From Phoenix dactylifera (taxonomy: Eukaryota; Streptophyta; Magnoliopsida; Arecales; Arecaceae): 64,000 bases of DNA. The notes under the pieces are model-generated. The model searched no databases. It worked only from the letters and a program-made list of their open reading frames with translations, and was not told where the DNA came from. Numbering within the stretch: the first letter of the stretch is position 1; each line of letters starts with the position of its first letter. Below, one piece after another: positions 22,620 through 56,638 of the stretch. The stretch lies in contig NC_052409.1 in NCBI RefSeq assembly GCF_009389715.1, forward strand, positions 6,993,605 through 7,057,604, read 5' to 3'. Made by a program: the position numbers and the translations under genes.

Positions 22620-25280
22620 AATGATTTTCTAAAGGATTATACTGAATGGGTACTCCATGGAGAGTTCATACCTTCATGTAACCAACCCTCCTATCTAGAA
22701 GACACCTTCAATTTTGGATGCAGTGACATGGAACAAAATTCTGTAGAAGAAGATGATATAAGGAGCTTATTTAGAGATACTCTTGGACATAGTATTAGAA
22801 CTATAGGAGAAGATGAGCGTACAGTTATTGATCAGTCTATGCATGTTGAGGAATCTATACATTCTGATGACACAGCTCATTATGATAATTTGGTGAAAAA
22901 TTGTGATCAAGAATTGTATCCGAGTTGTAAGAATTTTACGAAGATTTCTTTTCTTCTGCATTTATTACATTTGAAATATTTGAATGGGTGGTCCAGCAAG
23001 TTTTTTACTATGCTTCTTCAATTATTAAAGGATGTATTTCTGGAAGGTATTACTTTGCCATCATCTTCATATGAAGCCAAAAAACTAATAAAAGAGTTGG
23101 ACCTTAGATACGAGAAAATACACAGTTGTCTGAATGACTGCATTTTATATCGTGGTGAAATTAGGAACCAAGAGTCATGCCGAATATGTGGAACTTCACG
23201 ATGGGTAAAACATAAAGAAGACGAGAATGATTCGTTGACTGAAGTGGATGCTGCACCGACTAAGAAAAAACCAGCTAAAATTTTGAGATATTTTTCTCTT
23301 ATACCAAGATTGAAAAAAATGTTTGCATCATCGAAGACGGCTTCCTCAATGAGATGGCATGACAAAGGCCGTATAAAGGATGGAATGTTACGACACCCAG
23401 CGGATAGTCCTGCATGGAAAACATTTGATGATAGGCATCCTGAATTTGCTTCAGATGTTCGCAGTGTTAGGCTAGGTTTAGCTACTGATGGGTTTAGTCC
23501 ATTTCGAACGATGAACTCAACATACAGTACTTGGCCGGTTGTTTTGATTCCATATAATTTGCCACCATGGATGTGTATGAAACAGTCTTCAGTAATTCTG
23601 TCAATGGTTATTCCAGGTGACAAGGGCCCAGGTAATGATATTGATGTTTTTCTACAGCCTCTAATAGAGGAATTGAAACAAATATGGGAGGGTATTGATG
23701 CATTTGATGCTTTCGCTGGCAAAAATTTCAAATTGTGTGCAACTCTTATTTGGACTATCAATGATTTTTCTACATATGCTAATTTATCTGGTTGGAGCAC
23801 TAAGGGGCGTATTGCATGTCCTTCTTGTGGAGATTCAACCCATTCGTATTGGTTAAAATATGGAGAAAAGTTCTGTTATATGGGCCATCGTCGGTGGTTA
23901 GAAGCAAACCATCCATTTCGATTTCAGAAAGACTTGTTTGATGGTACCATAGAGTTGAGATCTGCCCCTATTCCACCAACTGGAATTGAAGTCTTTAGAC
24001 AAATGCATGGCACCAATTATATACTGAGTAAGATCTCCAAATGTTCAAAGAAGAGGGAAAGGGAGCATGTTGGCAGCACAATGAATGAAGGATTAATAGC
24101 AGAGGTTGTTGAGGATGCTGACAACTTTTTTGAGAATGAAGACAACGTATATGGTCAGAAAAATGATGATGACTCAATGGCAGCATCTACACAGAAACAA
24201 CTATGGAAAAAAGAGCATTTTCATTAATTTACCTTATTGGGAGTATAATCTTCTTCGACATAATCTTGATGTGATGTATATAGAGAAGAACGTTTGTAAT
24301 AACCTGATTGGAATATTGTTAAATCTTGATGGAAAGACCAAAAATAACTTGAAAGCGCGTCTTGATTTGAAAGATATGGGCATAAGACAAGAGCTTCATC
24401 CGACAGAGCTTGCCAATGATAAATTTTATACACCTCCTGCATGTTATACAATGTCTACTCAAAAGAAAGATCTTTTTCTAAAGGTTTTAAAAAATATGAA
24501 GGTTCCTGATGGATACTCATCAAATATTTCACGATGCGTATATCTCAAAGAGCGTAAACTTTCAAATCTTAAAAGTCACGATTGTCACATTTTGATGCAA
24601 AATATCTTTCCATTGACTTTAAGATTGTCAACACCGAAACAAGTTTTCGGAATTGTTTCTCAATTGTCATTATTCTTTAAGGCATTATGTTGCAAAGTTC
24701 TTGATCCTAAAGAGCTTGATCAATTGGAGTCTAATGTTGCACTTACACTATGCCATATGAAAAGGATCTTTCCTCCTGGGTTTTTTTACTATTATGGTTC
24801 ATCTACTTATTCACTTAGCGGCGGAAGTTAAACTTGGTGGAGCGGTTTACTACCGATGGATGTATCCTATTGAGAGGTGATTTTTCTAAACTCTAATGTT
24901 CATATTTAATAATTAGTTTGATTTTAATATTTATTTTAAAAATTTATTGTTGAAGGTTTTTTGTGCGCTTAAAAGATTATGTATGCAATCGAGCCTATCC
25001 TGAGGGATCGATTGTTGAAGGATATATTGCTGAGGAGTGTTTGACATTTTGTTCGAGATATCTTGAAGGTGTTGAAACGGTTTTCAGTCGACCTCAAAGG
25101 AATTGTGATTTCATAGAAAATCCAGATGTTTACAAGTTCTCATCTGGTGGAAGAGTTTTGGAAAAAGTTAAAAGTGTTGTTCATGACCAGAAATCGTTGG
25201 CACAGGCATATCGCTTTGTCTTACTTCATAGTGATATAATATCCGAATCTCGCAGGTTAGTACGGTTAATTGAAATCTAA
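22620..25280 (+). pseudogene. CACTA TNP2 transposase remnant
   Basis: Coding resemblance starts with KDYTEWVLHGE near 22632 and is open to 24227. It includes the CRICGTSRWV zinc-like motif, PRLKKMFASSKTASSMRWH, the GLATDGFSPF catalytic-core signature, a YNLPPWMCMKQ segment and RIACPSCGDST. Near 24200-24225, in an A-rich stretch, the frame shifts by one, and the protein resumes as FINLPYWEYNLLRHNLDVMY to about 24831. A probable intron then leads to RLKDYVCNRAYPEGSIVEGY at 24963-25280 (DUF4218 type). This is the cut-and-paste transposase of CACTA elements. Confidence 0.88.
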
Positions 25281-44400: not shown

Positions 44401-47400
44401 GATGCCTTGATAGCACAAGGTACACATGCTATGCTATTGCAGTTGTGATCTTGCATGATTGCATCAGTATCAATCCCACATACAGCAGTTTTTTTTTATT
44501 GCAATACCTTCCATTATGTAGACAATTATCGACACTTACTTTGGCAGCTTAATGTGAGCAAAAACAAATATTTTTGCATATCAAATGAGCGGTTAAAATA
44601 AATACAATATACTTTTTAAACATTATGTAGTTTCCCAATGACTGAATAAATTGAGCATTATGGTACTCAAATGTATTTGTATAAGCAGAAAAGGTATATA
44701 TTTAATCCATGATACCTCTATAACTCAATCATTTTGTTTAGTATAAAGTACAAAAATCTTGAAAAAAAAAAATAACATAAACATCATTTAACTTGGCGAT
44801 TAATTTCATGCAAAGGTGCTTAGACGACATACTAAGATACTCTCACTTCAATGAATTAATGAAACAAAATAAAACAATATATTATGTATGAAACACAATA
44901 AAACAATATATACTGCATTATTGCTTATATGAGAATTCAAATTGAGTCCATTCCATTTTGTATACCTGCAAGCTTCACCATTCAGAATTAAAGCTTTTAA
45001 AGAATCCACTGCTAGGGCATGCTTTACATCCACCTAAAAGAAGAAATATATAATTCAGAAAGTTGTTAAATCATGCAATAGTACAACTAGCATAAAAAAG
45101 GATGATAACTGTATATTCTAAATGCATATCACAAGTTAAGAAATTTGTACTCCAACATCACCTATATACCAGTTTGCAGTTCACATGGATAACCTTGCGA
45201 ATAAGTATGGCTAGTATAGTCTTTATAAGGACCTTTTTCCTCTACAAAATCAAGGATCATATCGCACCACAACAACCAGCACACCCTTACCACATGCCTA
45301 TGATTGCCTAACTTAGTAGAATTAGCTCCGATATAGAGCCTATCTGGATGTAATATGGCTAAATCACCACCCCATCCCCACCACCCAAAAGAAGAAGGCC
45401 CTATTTGGCATTGTTGTTGGAGGTTACTTATTGTAGAGCTAAAAGCTCTTTTGGATACTTTTGAGGAGTTTGATAACAATTTTGAAACAGATTTCTAGCT
45501 CCTCCAAAAGCTGAAAAAGATCTACTTGGGAAAAGCTTCAATTTAGAGCTCCTAGGTAAAAGCTCTATTTGAGATGCGCCAAATTTTTTTTTTGGATAAA
45601 AGCTCATCCAAGAGACCCGAGATCGTGTCCTGACAATCGAATTTTTTAAAACAATTAATTTCAAAACTTTTAATTGCTATAATCATTTAAGTTGGTGTCT
45701 TTTGTTGTCATAATCATTTAAGTTGGTAAGCATTTATGTTGCTATTATGATTTTGGATATATAAACAATATTATTGTCATTTAATAACTGGGTGAATAGT
45801 CAAACATTTATATTGCTATTAGAATCAATATGCTACTATGATATTTTTGTTGCTTAATAATCACCCAAAAAATAATTATATTATTTAGATGAAAAAAATA
45901 ACTTATATACTTTCTATGAATAATTTTTGATGGTACAATATAATAACAATCTAATACAATATAACAAATTAACAATAATGCAATCATATTATTATATTGT
46001 ATCATATTATATCATATCATATCATATTATAATAACATTATATCCTTATCATATTTATTATATTATAATAATCATAGTACTACAATATAATAACATTATA
46101 ATGTTATATTAAAATAATATCATATTATTATATTATAATAATATTATAAAAATGTCGATATATTTTTACAATAAATATAAAATTTATTATATATAGATTA
46201 AATATCAAATAAATGATTTATAAATTAAAAATACTTTATAATAATAGTTTTTGATAGTATAAATAATTGGATAATTGACAGTATTGTGTAATGTCGATTA
46301 TTATCATTTCCTAATATCAAAAGCACTTTTTCATTTTGTTTATCCAATATATATTTAAGTTTTATAACATTTCAGAAATATAGTTACCAAACAAAAAATA
46401 TTTTTTATTAAAAGCTCTACTGCCCAAAGCTCTATGGACAAAAGCCCTATTACCTATAGCAATGCCAATGAGGCTGAAAAAGATGAATTGGAGGAGCAAA
46501 TCCTGAAAATAGCATATACATCATGGATCAATGTATTATTCTTTTAAATGAAAATAATGTAGTAGGACCATTATTATATGTTAAATATGATCTCAACATC
46601 AATGCTTGTGAAGCATACATACAAGTAAACAAGGAAAGATAGTTGACAAGAAGAAAGGAGAGATGCAGAAGGAAGATTTCTGAATTTTTTTTTTTTTTTT
46701 TTGCACAGTGTCCCACCACAAGATGTTTCCAAATTATTGTAATAATGAACCACAGCTTTCTGTTTCGTTCAATTTAACAAATTTCAGGATTGCCATATGG
46801 ACGGGAATATCAGGTAATCAGTCTGCTGAATAATAGAGGATTTGATGAATCTACAGTAATGTAGGAAAAGGAAACAAGTCTGTTAAATTCATATACTTCT
46901 AAAAATCCAGGATCTAAGTTCAAAAACTGTAAGAGCAAGTACCCTAACAAAAATATATACTAATCTGAGTACATAGCTGATACAAAACAAACAAAAAAAA
47001 GTAATCACCTTGTGAGAGACACCAGCCCGCTCATAATACTTCTTGGCAATTTCAAGACATTTGGCATCTCTTTCGCATGCAACCAAACGGCCTGATTCAG
47101 GAAGAACTAGTGCAATAGCTAAAGAGGAGTATCCCTGAGGGCATCATCAATGATGGTGAGTGAAACTGCTGTAATTGAAAATTGGGGAAAATAACTAAAT
47201 AATACATCATATTCTTTGTCCAAGAAATGAAATGTAGATGATTCAACTATTGTTAAGTACACATACTGTATATACACCAACTTCAATGCACCTTTGTGCC
47301 CCAAGAATCTGTACAAGCATTGCAAGCAGTTGGGCCTGATCAGGAGATACCTACCAGAAAAATGAATACTTTTAGTCAACAAAGCGTGCAATTGCAAAGG

Positions 47401-49297: not shown

Positions 49298-51229
49298 CCT
49301 GTTTAGGGGAACCATTGGCAGTAGAACTGTTGGTAGTGGAGCTTTTATAAAAAGCTGTTTGATATTTGGTAACTATATTTCTAAAGTGCTGTGACATTTT
49401 AACATGTGTTTGGTAAACAAACTGAGAAAATATTTTTGTATGGCAAAAATACCATAAAAGATATTGCATAGTATTATACGATAGAGCATAATAAAACATA
49501 ACATATATAAATACATAATATACGATATAGTATAATATTACTGTAATGTAAAATAATATTATTATAATATAGTAATATGACATCGTATAGCATAGCATAA
49601 TAGTAATATAATTATTAGAGTAAATTAATTTTCCATCATATAACATAATATTAAATTATTTAACATAACATATTAATGTATTATGATATAATATAATATA
49701 TATTATATTTATAATATAATACAATAATAAAGGTATAAAATATTATAATTATTAGTATAAATTAATTTCTCATAATATAACATAATATTAAATTATTTAA
49801 AATAACATATTAATGTATTATGATATGATGTAATATAATATAATATCTATAGTATAATACAATAATAAAGGTATAAAATATTATAATTATCAGTATAAAT
49901 TAATTTCTCATAATATAGCATAATATTAAATTATTTAACATAACATATTAATGTATTATGATAATATATTATAATATTAAATTTATAGTATAATACAATA
50001 ATAAGGGTATAAAATATTATAATAAGTAGTATAAATTAATTTTTCATAATATAATATAATATTAAATTTTTTAACATAACATATTAATCTATTATGATAT
50101 AATGTAATATAATATTATATTTATAGTATAATATAACAATGGTGACAAATTCACTGTACCTATTAATATCATAAAGTTCAGATTATTTGCTACCCAGACA
50201 TTATTTTTTTTTATTTTTTTATTTATAAATTCATTAGTATATATATTAATTTATGCATTTATTTATTTTTTTATTATTTTATTCAATAAAATATATTTAT
50301 TTATTATCTTATTTATTCATTCATTCATTTATATATATATATATTTATTTATTTATGCATTTATTTATTTATTCTTTTCTTTTTTTTCTTTTCTTCTTTT
50401 TTTTCTTTTCTTTTCTTCTTTTTTTTCCTTTTCTTTTTCTTTTCTCTTCTCTTTATCTCCTTCCTTCCTCTCCCCCCTTCTCCTTTCTTCTCCTCCCAGG
50501 GGGCCGGCGGGGCCGGAAGGGGGCCAGGCCGCGACAACCGCAGGAGGGGACTGGGTCGTAGCCTGCGGCAGTCTCGACGGCCGCGGCTGGCCCCCTGCGA
50601 AGTGCACTCCTGCCACGAGGTCAACAGCGCCGGAAAGGAGACGAGCCGTGGTGGACGTGGAGGGGTGGGTCGTTGCCAGCGGCGGTTGTAGGAAGCGGGA
50701 GGGCGCCCCCTTCTTCTTCTTCTTCTTAGGCACCTCCTGGGGGCGAGGACATCCGCGGCGACCGGTCGACCTCCTTCTTCTTTGGCACCTCCCCATCCGC
50801 AACGGGGACATCATGGCCGGTGGCGGCCGCAGGAAGGGAAAGACCGCCCCTTCTTCCTCTTGTTCGGCACCTCTCCACCGTAGGGGCGGCAGCATGGGGG
50901 GGACGGTGGGGTAGAGGGAGGGCGGAGGGTGGGAGAGGAACGAGAGGGGGGGAGAGAAATGGGTGGTGAGATGAGCGTTTGGGGAGGAATTTTTTTTTTA
51001 AATGGAGGTATTTTAGTCAAAAATAAAGCTTTCCCGCAAAGCTCAAAACAACGTTTTCGAAAAGCTTCAAAATGGAGCTTCTGCCAAAAAGCTGTTTTCA
51101 GCTTTCCGAAAAAGCTGAAACAGCTTTCCGAATTTTTTACAAAACACCATTTTTTATCTAAAATTATTTTTGGAGGGCCAGAAAGTGTTTTTCGGCCCTC
51201 CAAAAGCTCCCCCAAACGAAGCCCGCTTT
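49292..51229. mobile_element. non-autonomous TIR transposon, copy C, about 1.9 kb
   Basis: The left end is AGACCCTGTTTAGGGGAACC; the right end, reverse-complemented, is GCGGGCTTCGTTTGGGGGAG. It abuts copy B, sharing a few bases. The left half is over 80 percent AT and contains a 137-bp tandem array (49600-50145). The next part is T-rich, followed by a GC-rich segment at about 50490-50930. No transposase was recognised. Confidence 0.65.
49600..50145. repeat. AT-rich tandem repeat, about 137-bp period, about 4 copies
   Basis: The word TATTAATGTATTATGAT recurs at 49671, 49808, 49946 and, as TATTAATCTATTATGAT, at 50082. The spacings are 137, 138 and 136. Each unit also contains TAATATTAAATTATTTAA and AAGGTATAAAATATTATAAT. 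The array lies inside transposon copy C. Confidence 0.85.
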
Positions 51230-52555
51230 TGATTAACTAAATATATAAATATTATTTGTTGGATATTATATATTAGGTTTTCTGCAAGCATACTCTGCTA
51301 AAAATTCAAATCCGCATGAATACCTCTCTAGAAGTAAAGTCTTAAAAAACTCAGGTACTAAATACTGTGGTCCCATAAATACTAGATATCTCTCAAAAAG
51401 AACCAATGCTGAACCCATATATCTCTCTTAATTATAATAGCTTTTCTTCAACGCTCTCTCCCTAACTCTCCCCTCAGTTTTGTTAATACGCATGCATATC
51501 ACATACAAAATACTTGCATATTTACTTATAGCTATCATTTTATCTTATTATAGAATCCATCATATAAAAGGAGAGTGACTTTGCGGGCTCCATATCTGAT
51601 TTACTAAAGCATTATTGAATTTTTTATTATTGACAATAAGATTCTTTTGTTAGTTTTATATATAGTTTATTCTCCTTTTAGTTACTTATCGGGATCATTC
51701 AATTTAATAATTCATATCTCTCATGGTTAAATAATAATACCATGATATTTTATGAGAAATAGTCATTAAGAAAAAAAAGGGTGTCTTGGTGCTACAGTAA
51801 GGTTGCTTTATTGTGATCTAGAAGTTATAGATTCAAAATATGGATAAGACATATCCGTATGTTGTGGTAAGGATGCATACTTCTAACCTTCTTCAAATCT
51901 TGTAATAGCAGGAGTTTTATAATGTTAGGTCGCCCTTTTTTTAAATGATCATTAAGAAAAATCAAGTTGAATATGATGATCTTATTTGAGTTGGGCTTAG
52001 GTTGTCTTTAATTATACACAAACATATAGCACGATAAAAAAAATATGACAATATTTTACAATTTTGTATGCCTTTAGTTCACACATCATGGACAAATTGT
52101 ATGTCTCTAACTATTTGATGCTTGTACGTCTCTTCTTCAATCTCCATAGTACCACACAAGAGAACATATGCTAATTTAAAACAAGCTATCAGTATTGGTT
52201 TCTCTTGGACTTGCAAAGTTTGTGCATGTGTGTGAAGCAGGAACAGGAGTTCTAAGAGGAGCATGTTAAGTAGATAGATTGCAACTTGCGAGTTCATCAA
52301 AAATGTATGGCGAAATAGAGGAAGTCTTATGATTCATCACTTATCAACACAAACACTTAATTTAAATAGGAAAATCTTATACATCACTATTTCATTCACC
52401 ACCCTATTCATTCTTTGTGGGTAAGTCACTGCTCTATTCATCACACCATGGTGAATAGAGCATCGCCACACAGTGTTTTCCATTTAAGCTAGCACAAATC
52501 TAATTATTGATAAATGTTATGATCTAACATTTAATCATATTTTGTAGCTGATGAA
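51230..52555. other. intergenic stretch, no gene seen
   Basis: AT-rich, with short open frames that resemble nothing known. Confidence 0.5.
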
Positions 52556-53639
52556 CACTACAAGAAAATACACTTTCAGCGACCACTTTCGGCGACTAAA
52601 TGAATAGTGGTCCCTGCAAATAAGGCTATTTGCAACCAACATACTTGTTAGTTACTGAATGATTGTCCTACACCGACTAAATGCATATTTGGTCGCGGAA
52701 AATCAAAACCAAGTTGGCGGGATGGAGGTAAAACGTTTGGCGACTAAAGTTTAGTCGCTGAAAATAAGACTATCTGCGACCACCATTCTTGTTAGTTACT
52801 GAATAATTGTCCTACACCGACTAAATGCATATTTGGTCACGGAAAAGCAATACCAAGTTGGGACGAGTCCAATATTTCGCACAGGCTGGAGGTAAAACTT
52901 ATGGTGACTAAATTTTGGTCCTTAAAGGTTCACCTCCAGCGACTAAAAAAAAATTTAGTCCAGAAAAACTTTTACGAATGACGCCTTTTTCCGATGAAAA
53001 AATTGGGCAAAAAGTTTAAGTTTTTTAGTGACCAAACTTTTGGTAGTGGAAGGTTCCCGTAAAACCGAACGATGTTGTACTAGCCCCTGTAAGATGCTAA
53101 TTTCTAAGCTCAAAAAAAAAAAAAAACTGCTTATTTTCAAACTGTGCCGTTTAACACCTTAATTCACTTAGGCATATCCTCATCTCTTCGGCTGAATCTC
53201 AATCCCATAACTTTTCTTCATACTTAAATTTTTTTTATTATTATAATATAATTTTAAAAGCTCAAGCTCAGTGCTTGACTCCTTGTCAAATAAATATACG
53301 AATCGACAGGATACGCGGCATGTGGACGTGGGAACGGAAATCCGCTTAGAAATATATAGAATTCTTGGACATCTTATGGGCATGATCGAAAATCTGCTTA
53401 GAAATAAATTTGCACGCATCCTTGTTAGTTACTGAATGATTGTCTTACACCAATTAAATGCATATTTGATAGTGAAAAATCAAAACCAAGTTGGCGCGAG
53501 TCCATTATTTTGCGCGAGCTGGAGGTAAAATTTTTGGCGACCATAGTGATTAATGGCAGTAAACTGTTTGGAATGCTCCATCAGTAATGCTATCAATGGG
53601 TACATGACCCATCGTGGCAAAAAATAGAAAATGCACGCC

Positions 53640-53870
53640 TCTTCGATATAAAAGGCGGCAACGCAGGTGCAGCCTCCTTCGCATTGTTCGCACACCAGCG
53701 GCAGACCAACCCTCCTGATCTGTTCACGAGAGGAGAGAGCGAGCCGAGCGACCGAGGAAGACACAATGAAGAGAAGAGAAGGAGCGGGCGAGAACGGGAA
53801 AAGTGGTCGTTTTTCACTCCTTTCGGGCATCGCCGCAGCATCGTGTCCCGCTGTTTTGTGATATTTATTA
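53640..53870 (+). other. GC-rich segment in CACTA element, possibly a captured first exon
   Basis: The composition differs sharply from the rest of the element. An ATG at 53766 opens MKRREGAGENGKSGRFSLLS and GIAAASCPAVL before a stop at about 53859. It lies about 80 bp before the captured kinase exon and could be the leader and first exon of the same donor gene. This is a guess from position and composition. Confidence 0.35.
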
Positions 53871-53941
53871 AGAAAAAATGTTTATATCACCTCGCCATCT
53901 TTCATTCGTGCTCTGCCTTGCTGCCTTTTTTTCCTTTTCAG

Positions 53942-54103
53942 ACTATCAGTATTCATTAATCATTATGGGGGCTTAAAGAAGGAAGTATTGAATGGTTGAG
54001 AGCCAAGCATGAAGTCCATAATCGGTTTGCTTATATGCTTCAAGAGTTATGCTTCCATAATGGAGGAATTTACATCAAGCTTGCTCAACATATTGGTCAA
54101 TTG
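53942..54103 (+). pseudogene. captured exon of an ABC1/ADCK (UbiB-family) kinase gene
   Basis: After a good acceptor (TTTTCAG/AC) one reads DYQYSL, then WGLKEGSIEWLRAKHEV, FAYMLQELCFHNGGIYIKLA and QHIGQL, then a donor (TTG/GTATGT). This is the start of the ABC1/UbiB atypical kinase domain, with the family phrase LQELCF.NGGIYIKLGQH. It resembles plant mitochondrial ADCK1-like proteins such as Arabidopsis At4g24810. The exon keeps its flanking splice sites, so it was copied from genomic DNA. A 7-bp tandem duplication (ATCATTA) breaks its frame, so it does not encode a working protein. Confidence 0.85.
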
Positions 54104-54160
54104 GTATGTTTCAAATTAGACCGTCTTATTCTGTACAATATGAATTTTTCTAATGCATTT

Positions 54161-54260
54161 CATGAAACACTGGAAAAGCATGTCATCTAGTGTCACGAAA
54201 TTATGAACCTCATGAAACACTAGAAGAACATGCCGTCTCATGTCACAAAATTATGAACCT
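54161..54260. repeat. 50-bp tandem duplication inside the CACTA element
   Basis: Two copies beginning CATGAAACACT start at 54161 and 54211, with several mismatches. They lie in the intron sequence that follows the captured exon. Confidence 0.85.
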
Positions 54261-54797
54261 TGAATTTCATTGGTCAACAACCAAGGAACTGGAGAAGTCA
54301 ACTAGTGTAATCTCAAAAAAATAAATCAGTTGGATCAGGGTGCCTTCTTTCTCCCCAAATATCATTTTGTTTGGACTGTTGGAGAGCTAAATTAAAATCT
54401 TTGCCTTTTACTGCATAAATATCTGGTATATTCACTGAAAATTTCCAGATTAGGAATGATAATGTGCACAAAACTGAGCGTTAAAGAGGGAGAATGAGAA
54501 CATGCAAAATAAGAGAGCATTAAGACTACTGAAAACAATCTTATGCATAAGAGTTGAGTTTCGGCGACCATATATGGTTATTCGGCAACTAGAATCTTAG
54601 TCGCTGAATATGTATTTTCTTGTAGTGGAAGTAGAGCTTTATTCTAGTGGTCACATTCCTCCAATAAGCAATCAAAGATTCTAGGACATGTAATTTTTGT
54701 CTATATGTTGGAGAGCCTATCAACTTTGCTATCAATTTTCTGAACTAGAAGTACCATGGAAGTGCTGTGAAAAAGTTGGTTGAAATGGAAGTATTTG

Positions 54798-55111
54798 GCC
54801 ACCAAGGTGATAGCACAGTTGGAACGGGGCTAAGATTCCACCGGAGTGACCCAGGTTCGGAACGCGCGGGCATCGATTAAATGTGGAGACCGGATGCCCT
54901 CCGCCTGATTTGCTCGGTAGAGTCGTCATCTGGTCCGCCGGTATTGAGGTGGCGTTGGGGTGACGTACTCACACGTGGGGTAACCCACGAGTCGGGGAGG
55001 ATATGAGTAAGGATGGTCATCCCGTCTACCTGCATCGAACATTCTCTGGTGGAAGGGAGGCCCAGTGAGGCCTTCCCCCCCTTCCTATTCCTTTAGCAAA
55101 AAAAAAAAACA
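54798..55111 (+). mobile_element. tRNA-derived SINE, about 314 bp, with target duplication
   Basis: Internal RNA polymerase III boxes are visible: TAGCACAGTTGG (A box, near 54812) and AGGTTCGGAAC (B box, near 54852). The body is GC-rich and ends TTTAGCAAAAAA in a short A tract. The direct repeat GAAGTATTTG flanks it (54788-54797 and 55112-55121). Structure and length are those of a plant SINE that appears complete; the one mismatch in the B box hints at some age. Confidence 0.9.
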
Positions 55112-55121
55112 GAAGTATTTG

Positions 55122-56379
55122 CAGACTTCTTTAAATCGTCTGATGGCAGCTTCATGACACAAAAGGAGAGAGTGGTGACTCGCAAGTTTACCCATAAGAA
55201 GGAAAGCCTCGGAAAGTAGAAGAGAGAGAGAGAGAGAGATTCCTGTGTAAAAGCCGAGACATCTATGCTTGGTTTTGTCTCACTTTTCAAGTAATGGAGT
55301 TGTTGAAGACCTGTTTGAGTTGGTCGATGCCTTGTTAAAATATTTGCTATAGAACTTCTGCTTGATTTTGTCTCACTTTTTAAGTGTCCCGAGAAAAAAT
55401 TGTTGTTGCCTTGCTCTGCATTGTATCTGTGGGTCAGTCTGTGTTGTAATCTCTTCTATGTATCTTCTCTGGACTCTCTCTCTCTCTCTCTCTTCTCTGT
55501 ACACTCATTTCTTCGACATTCTAAATAAAGTTGTCATCGTTGTCATATCCTCCTATATTCTAAAACGAGCCTGAGTTTGGATTCTAAGGAGGTGAAGTGA
55601 AAATTTTGCTTCAAATTAGACTCCTTACCTTCTACAATCATTGGGGGGTGAGATGGGGTCAGTTTATTAGAAGATCTAACAATGTATAGGTCGTAAGCAA
55701 CAAAGAGTTGAATGCTGCATTCAAAGAGCTTGGTTGAAGTAGGAACTCATAAGAATGTAAAAATTGAATTGACTAGAAAATTCGTTAGTTTAATTGGGAT
55801 AAAAATCTCAAGACAGCTCCCTTCTGAATCAGCTAAATACTAGGATAAAGGCCATCTAAGTTGTGTTATTGCTCATTAATCTTTATTGTGTCCTGCGGAT
55901 ATATGACAAAAACTCCTTGCGATGGGAATCCAAATTTCATGCGAACCATGGTCGTAAGAGAATTCCTATGACTGCAGACCTTTGTGCAGCTTCTCAATGT
56001 CTGCTCCTTTTTCTTTTTTTTTTAGAGGGAACATTTGGCACAATTTATCTATTCAATTTCAAGTGCTTATCTCTCTTTCAGACGTGATTTTTGAAATACT
56101 TAATCTATTAATTAGCCTAAAATCTATAAATGATGGAATTCAGTACCGGCACTGGCACTGATATGATTTCAGGTGTGCAGAGTTGGATCCCAAAATGGCG
56201 TCTAATAAATCATTTAAATACTTTTTTGAGGAAAAAAAAAAAAAAGCTTACACCAGTAAAAAAATATAAAATATATAAATAAATTTATCTCATCCTATCA
56301 ACTTAAGCTTTTGGGATAAGTAGTGACTTTAACAACAGCTAAGATGTGTGTAAACAATGGAAATCAATAGCTACACTAT
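55122..56379. other. intergenic stretch
   Basis: Short GA (55222-55239) and CT (55476-55493) runs and AT-rich sequence; no recognisable gene. Confidence 0.5.
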
Positions 56380-56606
56380 ATTTGGGACATGGTGCATGAC
56401 ACAGTAGCCTTTCAGGCTAAACATGTGTACCAAGAGGCCAACGAGGCAGCAGACTGAGCGGTAGCGTATATAGCGAACCACTCAGAAGACACCCAATAGG
56501 CAAGGAAGAGAAAATTGCTTAGGGCACTGTGTAACTTATTGTTTGCTGATTCTACTGGGTGTATTCGTTCTCGTAATATATGAAATATCCGTTTTTTAGC
56601 AAAAAA
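56380..56606 (+). mobile_element. LINE (L1-type) 3' end: RNase H tail, 3' UTR and poly-A
   Basis: The plus strand reads HVYQEANEAAD then AYIANHSED, the end of the RNase H domain found in plant L1 elements. It is followed by CNLLFADSTGCIRSRN and a stop. The element ends TTTTTTAGCAAAAAA. An in-frame stop within the RNase H segment shows decay. Only the 3' part is visible; no flanking duplication was identified. Confidence 0.75.
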
Positions 56607-56638
56607 TAGCCAGATCGTATTGTATTATCATTCCCAAT

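Follow-up and report, generated by a model that had tools for sequence, protein, structure and literature searches.

A Pack-CACTA element with a composite interior in the date palm genome

How does an exon of a kinase gene come to lie, with both of its splice sites, between the ends of a transposable element, and where did the rest of that element's interior come from? These questions are raised by a locus of the date palm (Phoenix dactylifera) within a stretch of 64,000 nucleotides (C18:6993605-7057604, hereafter the window), which we compared with a genome of 773 Mb in 2391 contigs. A preliminary description had read this locus as a gene-capturing CACTA element, or transduplicate, and its complete ends, target duplication, family and host-gene DNA agree with that reading. 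We are confident that it is a non-autonomous Pack-CACTA element (En/Spm-type) whose interior derives from at least two unlinked sources, and it was probably moved to this site by transposition. The two sources are a fragment of another CACTA family that brought the start of an FF-domain gene with it, and an intron-exon-intron copy from an ABC1-kinase gene. The features are as follows, in window coordinates.

52553..52555, no strand: left target-site duplication, GAA, read from the sequence
52556..53541, plus strand: left part of the element's own CACTA family (family A), with terminal repeat CACTACAAGAAAATACACTTTCAGCGAC and subterminal repeats; from the end repeat, family matches and cover by six sisters
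53541..53630, plus strand: non-gene fragment from a further CACTA family, family B, which has ends CACTACCAGAAAACACGCGT; from two blocks of about 40 bp common to L023/L024 and other loci
53616..53849, plus strand: start of an FF-domain (PRP40/TCERG1-like) gene with putative TATA box and leader; from the breakpoint in L023/L024, the kind of gene being taken from the FF exons of a homologue on C5
53851..54558, plus strand: ABC1-kinase intron-exon-intron, 708 bp; 97.3, 96.3, 95.4 and 93.6% identical, gaps left out, to four other genomic copies
53942..54103, plus strand: kinase exon with AG before and GT after, a 7-bp frameshift insertion and KLAQ; from sequence comparison with the four copies
54558..54627, plus strand: right end of family A, 70 bp, with terminal inverted repeat; 97% identity in L012 and L013
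54628..54630, no strand: right target-site duplication, GAA, read from the sequence

The element is complete and spans 52556-54627. Its terminal inverted repeats (52556-52583 and 54600-54627) match at 26 of 28 positions (93%), GAA stands directly outside each end as a 3-bp target-site duplication, and the exact occurrences of the 14-mer CACTACAAGAAAAT in the window are the two element ends only. The open reading frames inside are all short, the TNP2-type transposase domain (PF02992) is absent from the element in a genome-wide search (best 150 of 534 candidates), and the interior is explained by other, non-transposase sequence. On these three points, the paired ends, the GAA and the lack of a transposase, the preliminary description was right. 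The flanks (about 170-200 bp on each side) have no other match in the genome, and a joined flank query (196 + about 170 bases) matches this site only, such that no empty site was found. The best 40 of 314 candidates in the whole-element search include no other copy of this exact element. With a single copy, it is the ends and the duplication that argue for movement after the cargo was assembled. Positions within the element are counted below from window position 52556 as position 1, such that 986-1294 correspond to 53541-53849 and 1296-2003 to 53851-54558.

Several other features of the locus can be recorded here. The RNA fold of the left part (52556-53541) is more stable than its shuffled versions (z -4.07, 20 shuffles), which is probably an effect of internal inverted repeats. 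In the right flank a SINE-like insert with an A-rich tail (54797-55111), bounded by the 9-bp duplication gaagtattt (54788-54796 and 55112-55120), interrupts an exon-like open reading frame, for which our searches gave no identity. Further away are an AT-rich tandem array (49607-50140; 138-bp unit, 3.9 copies, 90%), an O-methyltransferase domain exon on the minus strand (46892-47140; PF01596, 43.9 bits), and a PF02992 (TNP2) domain in a 535-aa open frame on the plus strand (23379-24008) that belongs to another CACTA element.

If the element is a genuine CACTA transposon its termini should recur as a family, and they do. The whole-element search returned at least 53 matching stretches (best 40 of 314 candidates), comprising the element itself, at least 36 other places that match the left part, and three kinase loci. 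With the final 70 bp as query we obtained at least 40 matches including the element itself, i.e. at least 39 other right ends (best 40 of 148 candidates). We then paired 34 left matches that start within 6 bases of the element end with the 39 right ends, accepting pairs on one strand and within 20 kb; the matches on C90 and at C12:12854053, which start at position 178, were left out. Among the matches listed, 11 of the 34 left ends pair with a right end, giving elements of 1,748 to 9,271 bp. Six of the 11 (L012, L013 and L037-L040) were read as sisters. Together with the present element they make seven, of which six have a perfect 3-bp duplication (GAA, TAT, AAG, AGT, TCG and CAT), and the seventh, C17:180447-184279, lacks one. 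A coiled-coil open reading frame in the sister L012 falls below every Pfam cut-off.

Three of the 34 left ends, on C13, C1153 and C1355, have a PF02992 domain on the same strand, 3.0-3.4 kb inward; for right ends on C1248 and at C4:19124383 the domain lies upstream, at 2.1 and 5.5 kb respectively. This comparison took in the 10 of 150 listed hits that are on shared contigs; with over 11 kb between them and the right end, the hits on C167 and C285 fall outside the element. Family A is a multi-copy family, some members of which carry a TNP2-type transposase domain. Ends that start with CACTA, a 3-bp duplication and such a transposase in relatives place the element in the CACTA (En/Spm) superfamily, and host-gene DNA in an element that has no transposase of its own (the 708-bp kinase stretch and the FF-gene start) places it among the Pack-TYPE elements, as a Pack-CACTA.

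Comparison with the six sisters, counting runs of at least 40 bp, leaves only element positions 987-2002 uncovered, and this part of the interior is therefore foreign to the family. One of the six sisters read has a different patchwork interior. This is L038 (C2:19854396-19858356), where a 1,455-bp stretch is missing from the other sisters; a first part of it matches C244, C592, C198 and C4 at 90-97% and a second part matches C68, C3 and C11 at 91-92% (best 40 of 76 candidates). Within the cargo of L038 there is an exon-like start with a GTAAG donor after it. Three further sisters have uncovered runs of 211, 557 and 557 bp.

The larger of the foreign pieces is the kinase stretch. All five candidates of the search with this segment were scored, one of them being the element itself, and the other four are copies elsewhere in the genome. 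Gap-free identities to the element are 97.3% for C3:820724-821424, 96.3% for C2364:10213-10919, 95.4% for C9:22742556-22743245 and 93.6% for C3:24740218-24740916; with gaps counted, as in BLAST, the values are 96.3, 96.3, 90.7 and 92.4%, respectively. When the four copies are compared with window positions 50556-56627, every match is confined to 53851-54558. Kinase exons that run outward past the CACTA ends, which would speak against a capture, are thus absent, and the flanks of the element match nowhere else. In the stretches read, allowing up to 2 mismatches, no family-A or family-B ends bracket any of the four copies.

The exon itself (53942-54103) has its acceptor AG at 53940-53941 and its donor GT at 54104-54105, and it can be assigned through a relative, the exons of which downstream carry the ABC1 domain (PF03109). 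The ABC1/ADCK exon with both splice sites that the preliminary description reported is therefore real. Intron sequence flanks it on both sides, which means that the stretch was copied from DNA and not from spliced RNA, again as proposed. Read in its native frame, the exon of the element runs into a stop shortly past the acceptor; an in-exon TAA precedes the part in which the kinase frame is open. The four other copies read KLGQ where the element reads KLAQ; KxGQ is a motif of the ABC1 kinase family. Given the 7-bp frameshift and the stop codons near the exon start, no kinase protein is possible from the element, and the captured piece does not hold an open reading frame able to encode its part of the kinase.

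Searches of Pfam, NCBIfam and PDB with the captured exon by itself gave nothing useful, and a first joined peptide from one kinase copy (L009) was also uninformative in identity searches. The kind of gene is read from the copy at C3:24.74 Mb, the most complete one, with six exon matches over about 12 kb including an HCDPHAAN segment that we take to be an ABC1/UbiB kinase motif. Its downstream exons match PF03109 at 57, 64 and 32 bits singly and at 172 bits when joined; one more downstream exon, at 14.5 bits, stays below the cut-off. With both PF03109 and HCDPHAAN, the exons at C3:24.729-24.738 Mb identify an ABC1/UbiB (ADCK) gene, and a genome-wide PF03109 search finds them at C3:24729071, 24729235 and 24737850 (best 150 of 265 candidates). 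The match at C3:24737850 contains a stop in its aligned stretch, which probably falls past the exon end. Of the 19,801 bases read here 3,419 are N, and "most complete" does not imply that this copy is intact.

Which copy served as the donor? The preliminary description pointed to an intact kinase gene, and this expectation probably does not hold. None of the other three copies shows more than exons 1-4; C3:820724 and C2364 contain frameshifts, and in C9 the third exon is damaged. We are fairly sure that exons 5-6 are missing from C3:820724 (12 kb of sequence read past exon 4) and less sure of this for C2364 (7.7 kb read) and C9 (5.5 kb read). These damaged copies are closer to the element (97.3, 96.3 and 95.4%) than the most complete one is (93.6%), and the 7-bp exon insertion is common to the element and C2364 alone, from which a damaged donor is likely. 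The donor was probably one of this group of damaged duplicates; substitutions favour C3:820724, which they place nearest to the element, and the insertion favours C2364. A further partial copy with exons 3-4, at the start of contig C22, begins after the position of the captured exon, and no comparison with it is possible.

The kinase copies (L009, L010, L011, L033 and L045) tend to lie near sequence ends. The copy at C3:24.74 Mb is 9 kb and that on C9 about 4 kb from an end, the C22 copy is at the first bases, the contig of C2364 is only 21 kb long, and C3:820724 is 0.8 Mb in. This may reflect subtelomeric spread or assembly breaks in repeats. The C2364 copy (L010) also hosts, at 238-1387, a CACTA-like insert of about 1.15 kb that starts with CACTACAAGAAAAT, ends with CATAGTG and has TCA on both sides. 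It is about 3.2 kb from the kinase segment, is absent from L009, and has no match in the elements of family A or family B with which it was compared. The exact end-like 14-mer of L010 is thus the start of a separate insert and not a bracket of the kinase segment.

The second foreign piece had escaped notice. The preliminary description placed the kinase sequence at 53640-54110 and named no other captured piece. The kinase exon does lie inside that interval, whereas the real kinase stretch is 53851-54558 and the preceding 53541-53849, counted in part as kinase, is a family-B fragment with an FF-gene start. We searched with 53541-53849 and scored all 22 candidates. The loci L023 (on C7) and L024 (on C869) are complete family-B elements with ends CACTACCAGAAAACACGCGT and duplications TGT and AAT; for most of their length the two agree at about 97%. 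Both are about 4.5 kb long (L023 1034-5598 and L024 3856-8318) and carry FF-domain gene sequence. Two family-B blocks of about 40 bp, adjacent in the element, are roughly 160-250 bp apart in L023/L024 and other loci. The element and L023/L024 have family-B sequence up to an identical breakpoint, after which the leader begins; L025 (on C2), which we take as a gene copy, is without that family-B sequence. A fourth locus, L026 on C35, has gene sequence and family-B end sequence, with no recognisable end within 5 mismatches. In the element the TATAAAA at 53647-53653 is a putative TATA box, placed before the leader in a likely promoter role, and the leader stops before the gene's apparent first splice donor.

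The kind of gene comes from a more distant gene copy, L027 on C5, which matches the leader at 69%. Some 12 kb onward on the same strand of C5 lie FF-domain exons (L034; 66 bits joined, another at 26 bits), which we infer to belong to one gene with the leader. A genome-wide FF-domain search found C177 only, and the open reading frames of L025, L027 and L023 have no Pfam match, for which reason the joined L034 exons were used. In PDB these exons match TCERG1 best and PRPF40A next, the two not being separated; we prefer PRP40, presumably the better choice from a resemblance in the N-terminal region.

How were the two pieces brought together? In the scheme that we favour, family B would first have taken up the start of the FF-domain gene, the family-B fragment with this gene start would have been handed to family A, and the kinase intron-exon-intron would have been added to the family-A element. 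The pieces could have been joined via break repair (aberrant gap repair or end joining) or by hybridisation of neighbouring insertions, leaving a left part of 986 bp and a right end of just 70 bp, and the hybrid would then have been moved to its present site by the transposase of a family member, acting in trans. At the three junctions (near 53541, 53850 and 54558) the overlap, judged by eye, is 0-1 bp, and this, together with a right end reduced to 70 bp, fits end joining or a neighbour hybrid. The latter model has been published: two insertions lie side by side, their terminal deletions complement each other, and together they form a single element (PMC13317346).

The hybrid model needs just one contiguous stretch between two insertions, and this leaves some room for another history, in which both pieces were taken up at once from a place where a family-B fragment and a kinase copy were already neighbours. 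Rearrangements are seen in the kinase copies, and the TCA-flanked CACTA-like insert, of neither family A nor family B, is near the C2364 segment. We found no such locus, however. The leader has matches on C7, C869, C2, C35 and C5 (69%), the kinase segment on C3 (two), C2364 and C9, and no contig is common to both. We consider a single capture possible, and a minority prospect beside assembly from unlinked sources.

The hand-over between the two families can also be questioned. Both gene pieces might have been caught directly from genes, the likeness of the leader to family B being secondary. The leader is equally close to the gene copy L025 (92.0%) and to L023 (92.0%), and the three sites that separate L023/L024 from L025/L026 are split 1:1:1. 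The second-hand relay is therefore argued from the common breakpoint and not from substitutions. Direct capture is already disfavoured, and we think it improbable: the family-B sequence runs to the identical breakpoint in the element and L023/L024 and is missing in L025, and L023 matches L025 over about 2.6 kb, well beyond the share of the element, which makes transfer from the element to family B unlikely. Since L023 holds far more of the gene than the element does, transfer from family B to family A is the most likely direction.

The divergence of the pieces gives a hint of the order of events. The leader part differs from its nearest relatives by 8% and the kinase part by 2.7-3.7%, and this larger leader divergence suggests that the leader was captured before the kinase piece, although the two stretches may differ in evolutionary rate. 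Across about 676 gap-free sites of the kinase stretch, 13 changes are peculiar to the element. At the rates of grasses and palms, these would correspond to an age of about 3 to 7 million years, a rough figure only.

What might the element do at present? Most likely it is a passenger, inert or silenced, by which gene pieces are shuffled. Transcripts might start from the captured gene start, or the exon might serve as a cassette exon if the element is inside a transcribed unit. It is unlikely that the element is a promoter-plus-exon construct built from second-hand gene pieces, transcribed and acting as an exon trap or small-RNA source; if it were, one CACTA family would have caught a gene start and another would have taken the fragment and added a same-orientation exon with its splice sites. 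A stronger proposal, that a sense gene start upstream of the exon would drive transcripts or small-RNA precursors which affect the ABC1-kinase gene, would account for the kept TATA-like box and leader, the shared orientation of the pieces and the intact splice sites of the exon. We nonetheless hold it to be improbable, as the leader's apparent splice donor is lost at the junction, the most complete kinase gene is no more than 93.6% identical, and the same orientation has a one-in-two chance of arising anyway. The remaining alternative, that there was no transposon capture and that chance CACTA-like ends or two element remnants surround a kinase pseudogene, has nothing in its favour and can be set aside as extremely improbable, given the matching 26/28-bp ends with their 3-bp duplication, the family with identical ends, and the lack of any relationship between the flanks and the kinase copies.

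The element is a Pack-CACTA, a known kind, and this class of event is well described. Two published accounts (PMC8903248, PMC13317346) describe Pack-CACTA elements of Arabidopsis, rice and maize with CACTA ends, no transposase and captured gene DNA, as here, and one of them reports that an element can hold several captured loci, maize Pack-CACTA having the most (PMC8903248). The date palm element differs in that one of its pieces, a gene start, most likely arrived by way of a further CACTA family, and in that its exon probably derives from a duplicate that was already damaged. The soybean Tgm-Express1 is a CACTA element with five unrelated gene fragments that keep their splice sites, much as here; its insertion is in a pigment-gene intron, and splicing of the fragments as cassette exons has been shown (PMC1947982), whereas for the date palm element this is a possibility only. 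Grapevine Cactavine-5 likewise has transduplicated gene sequence, which there is a PPR-gene piece downstream of the transposase open reading frame; in date palm the cargo is composite and a transposase was not found (PMC2528002). At the level of titles and abstract openings we found no date palm Pack-CACTA in the literature, and we do not claim that none is in print. The hand-over of a gene start between two CACTA families seems to be the less usual feature.

In summary, the element provides a palm example of the stepwise assembly of gene pieces by CACTA transposons, with an order that is partly readable: family B, family A and then the kinase piece. It suggests that other transposons and damaged duplicates, and not working genes, can be the source of such cargo, and this origin matters when captured exons are taken as potential regulators of their donors.
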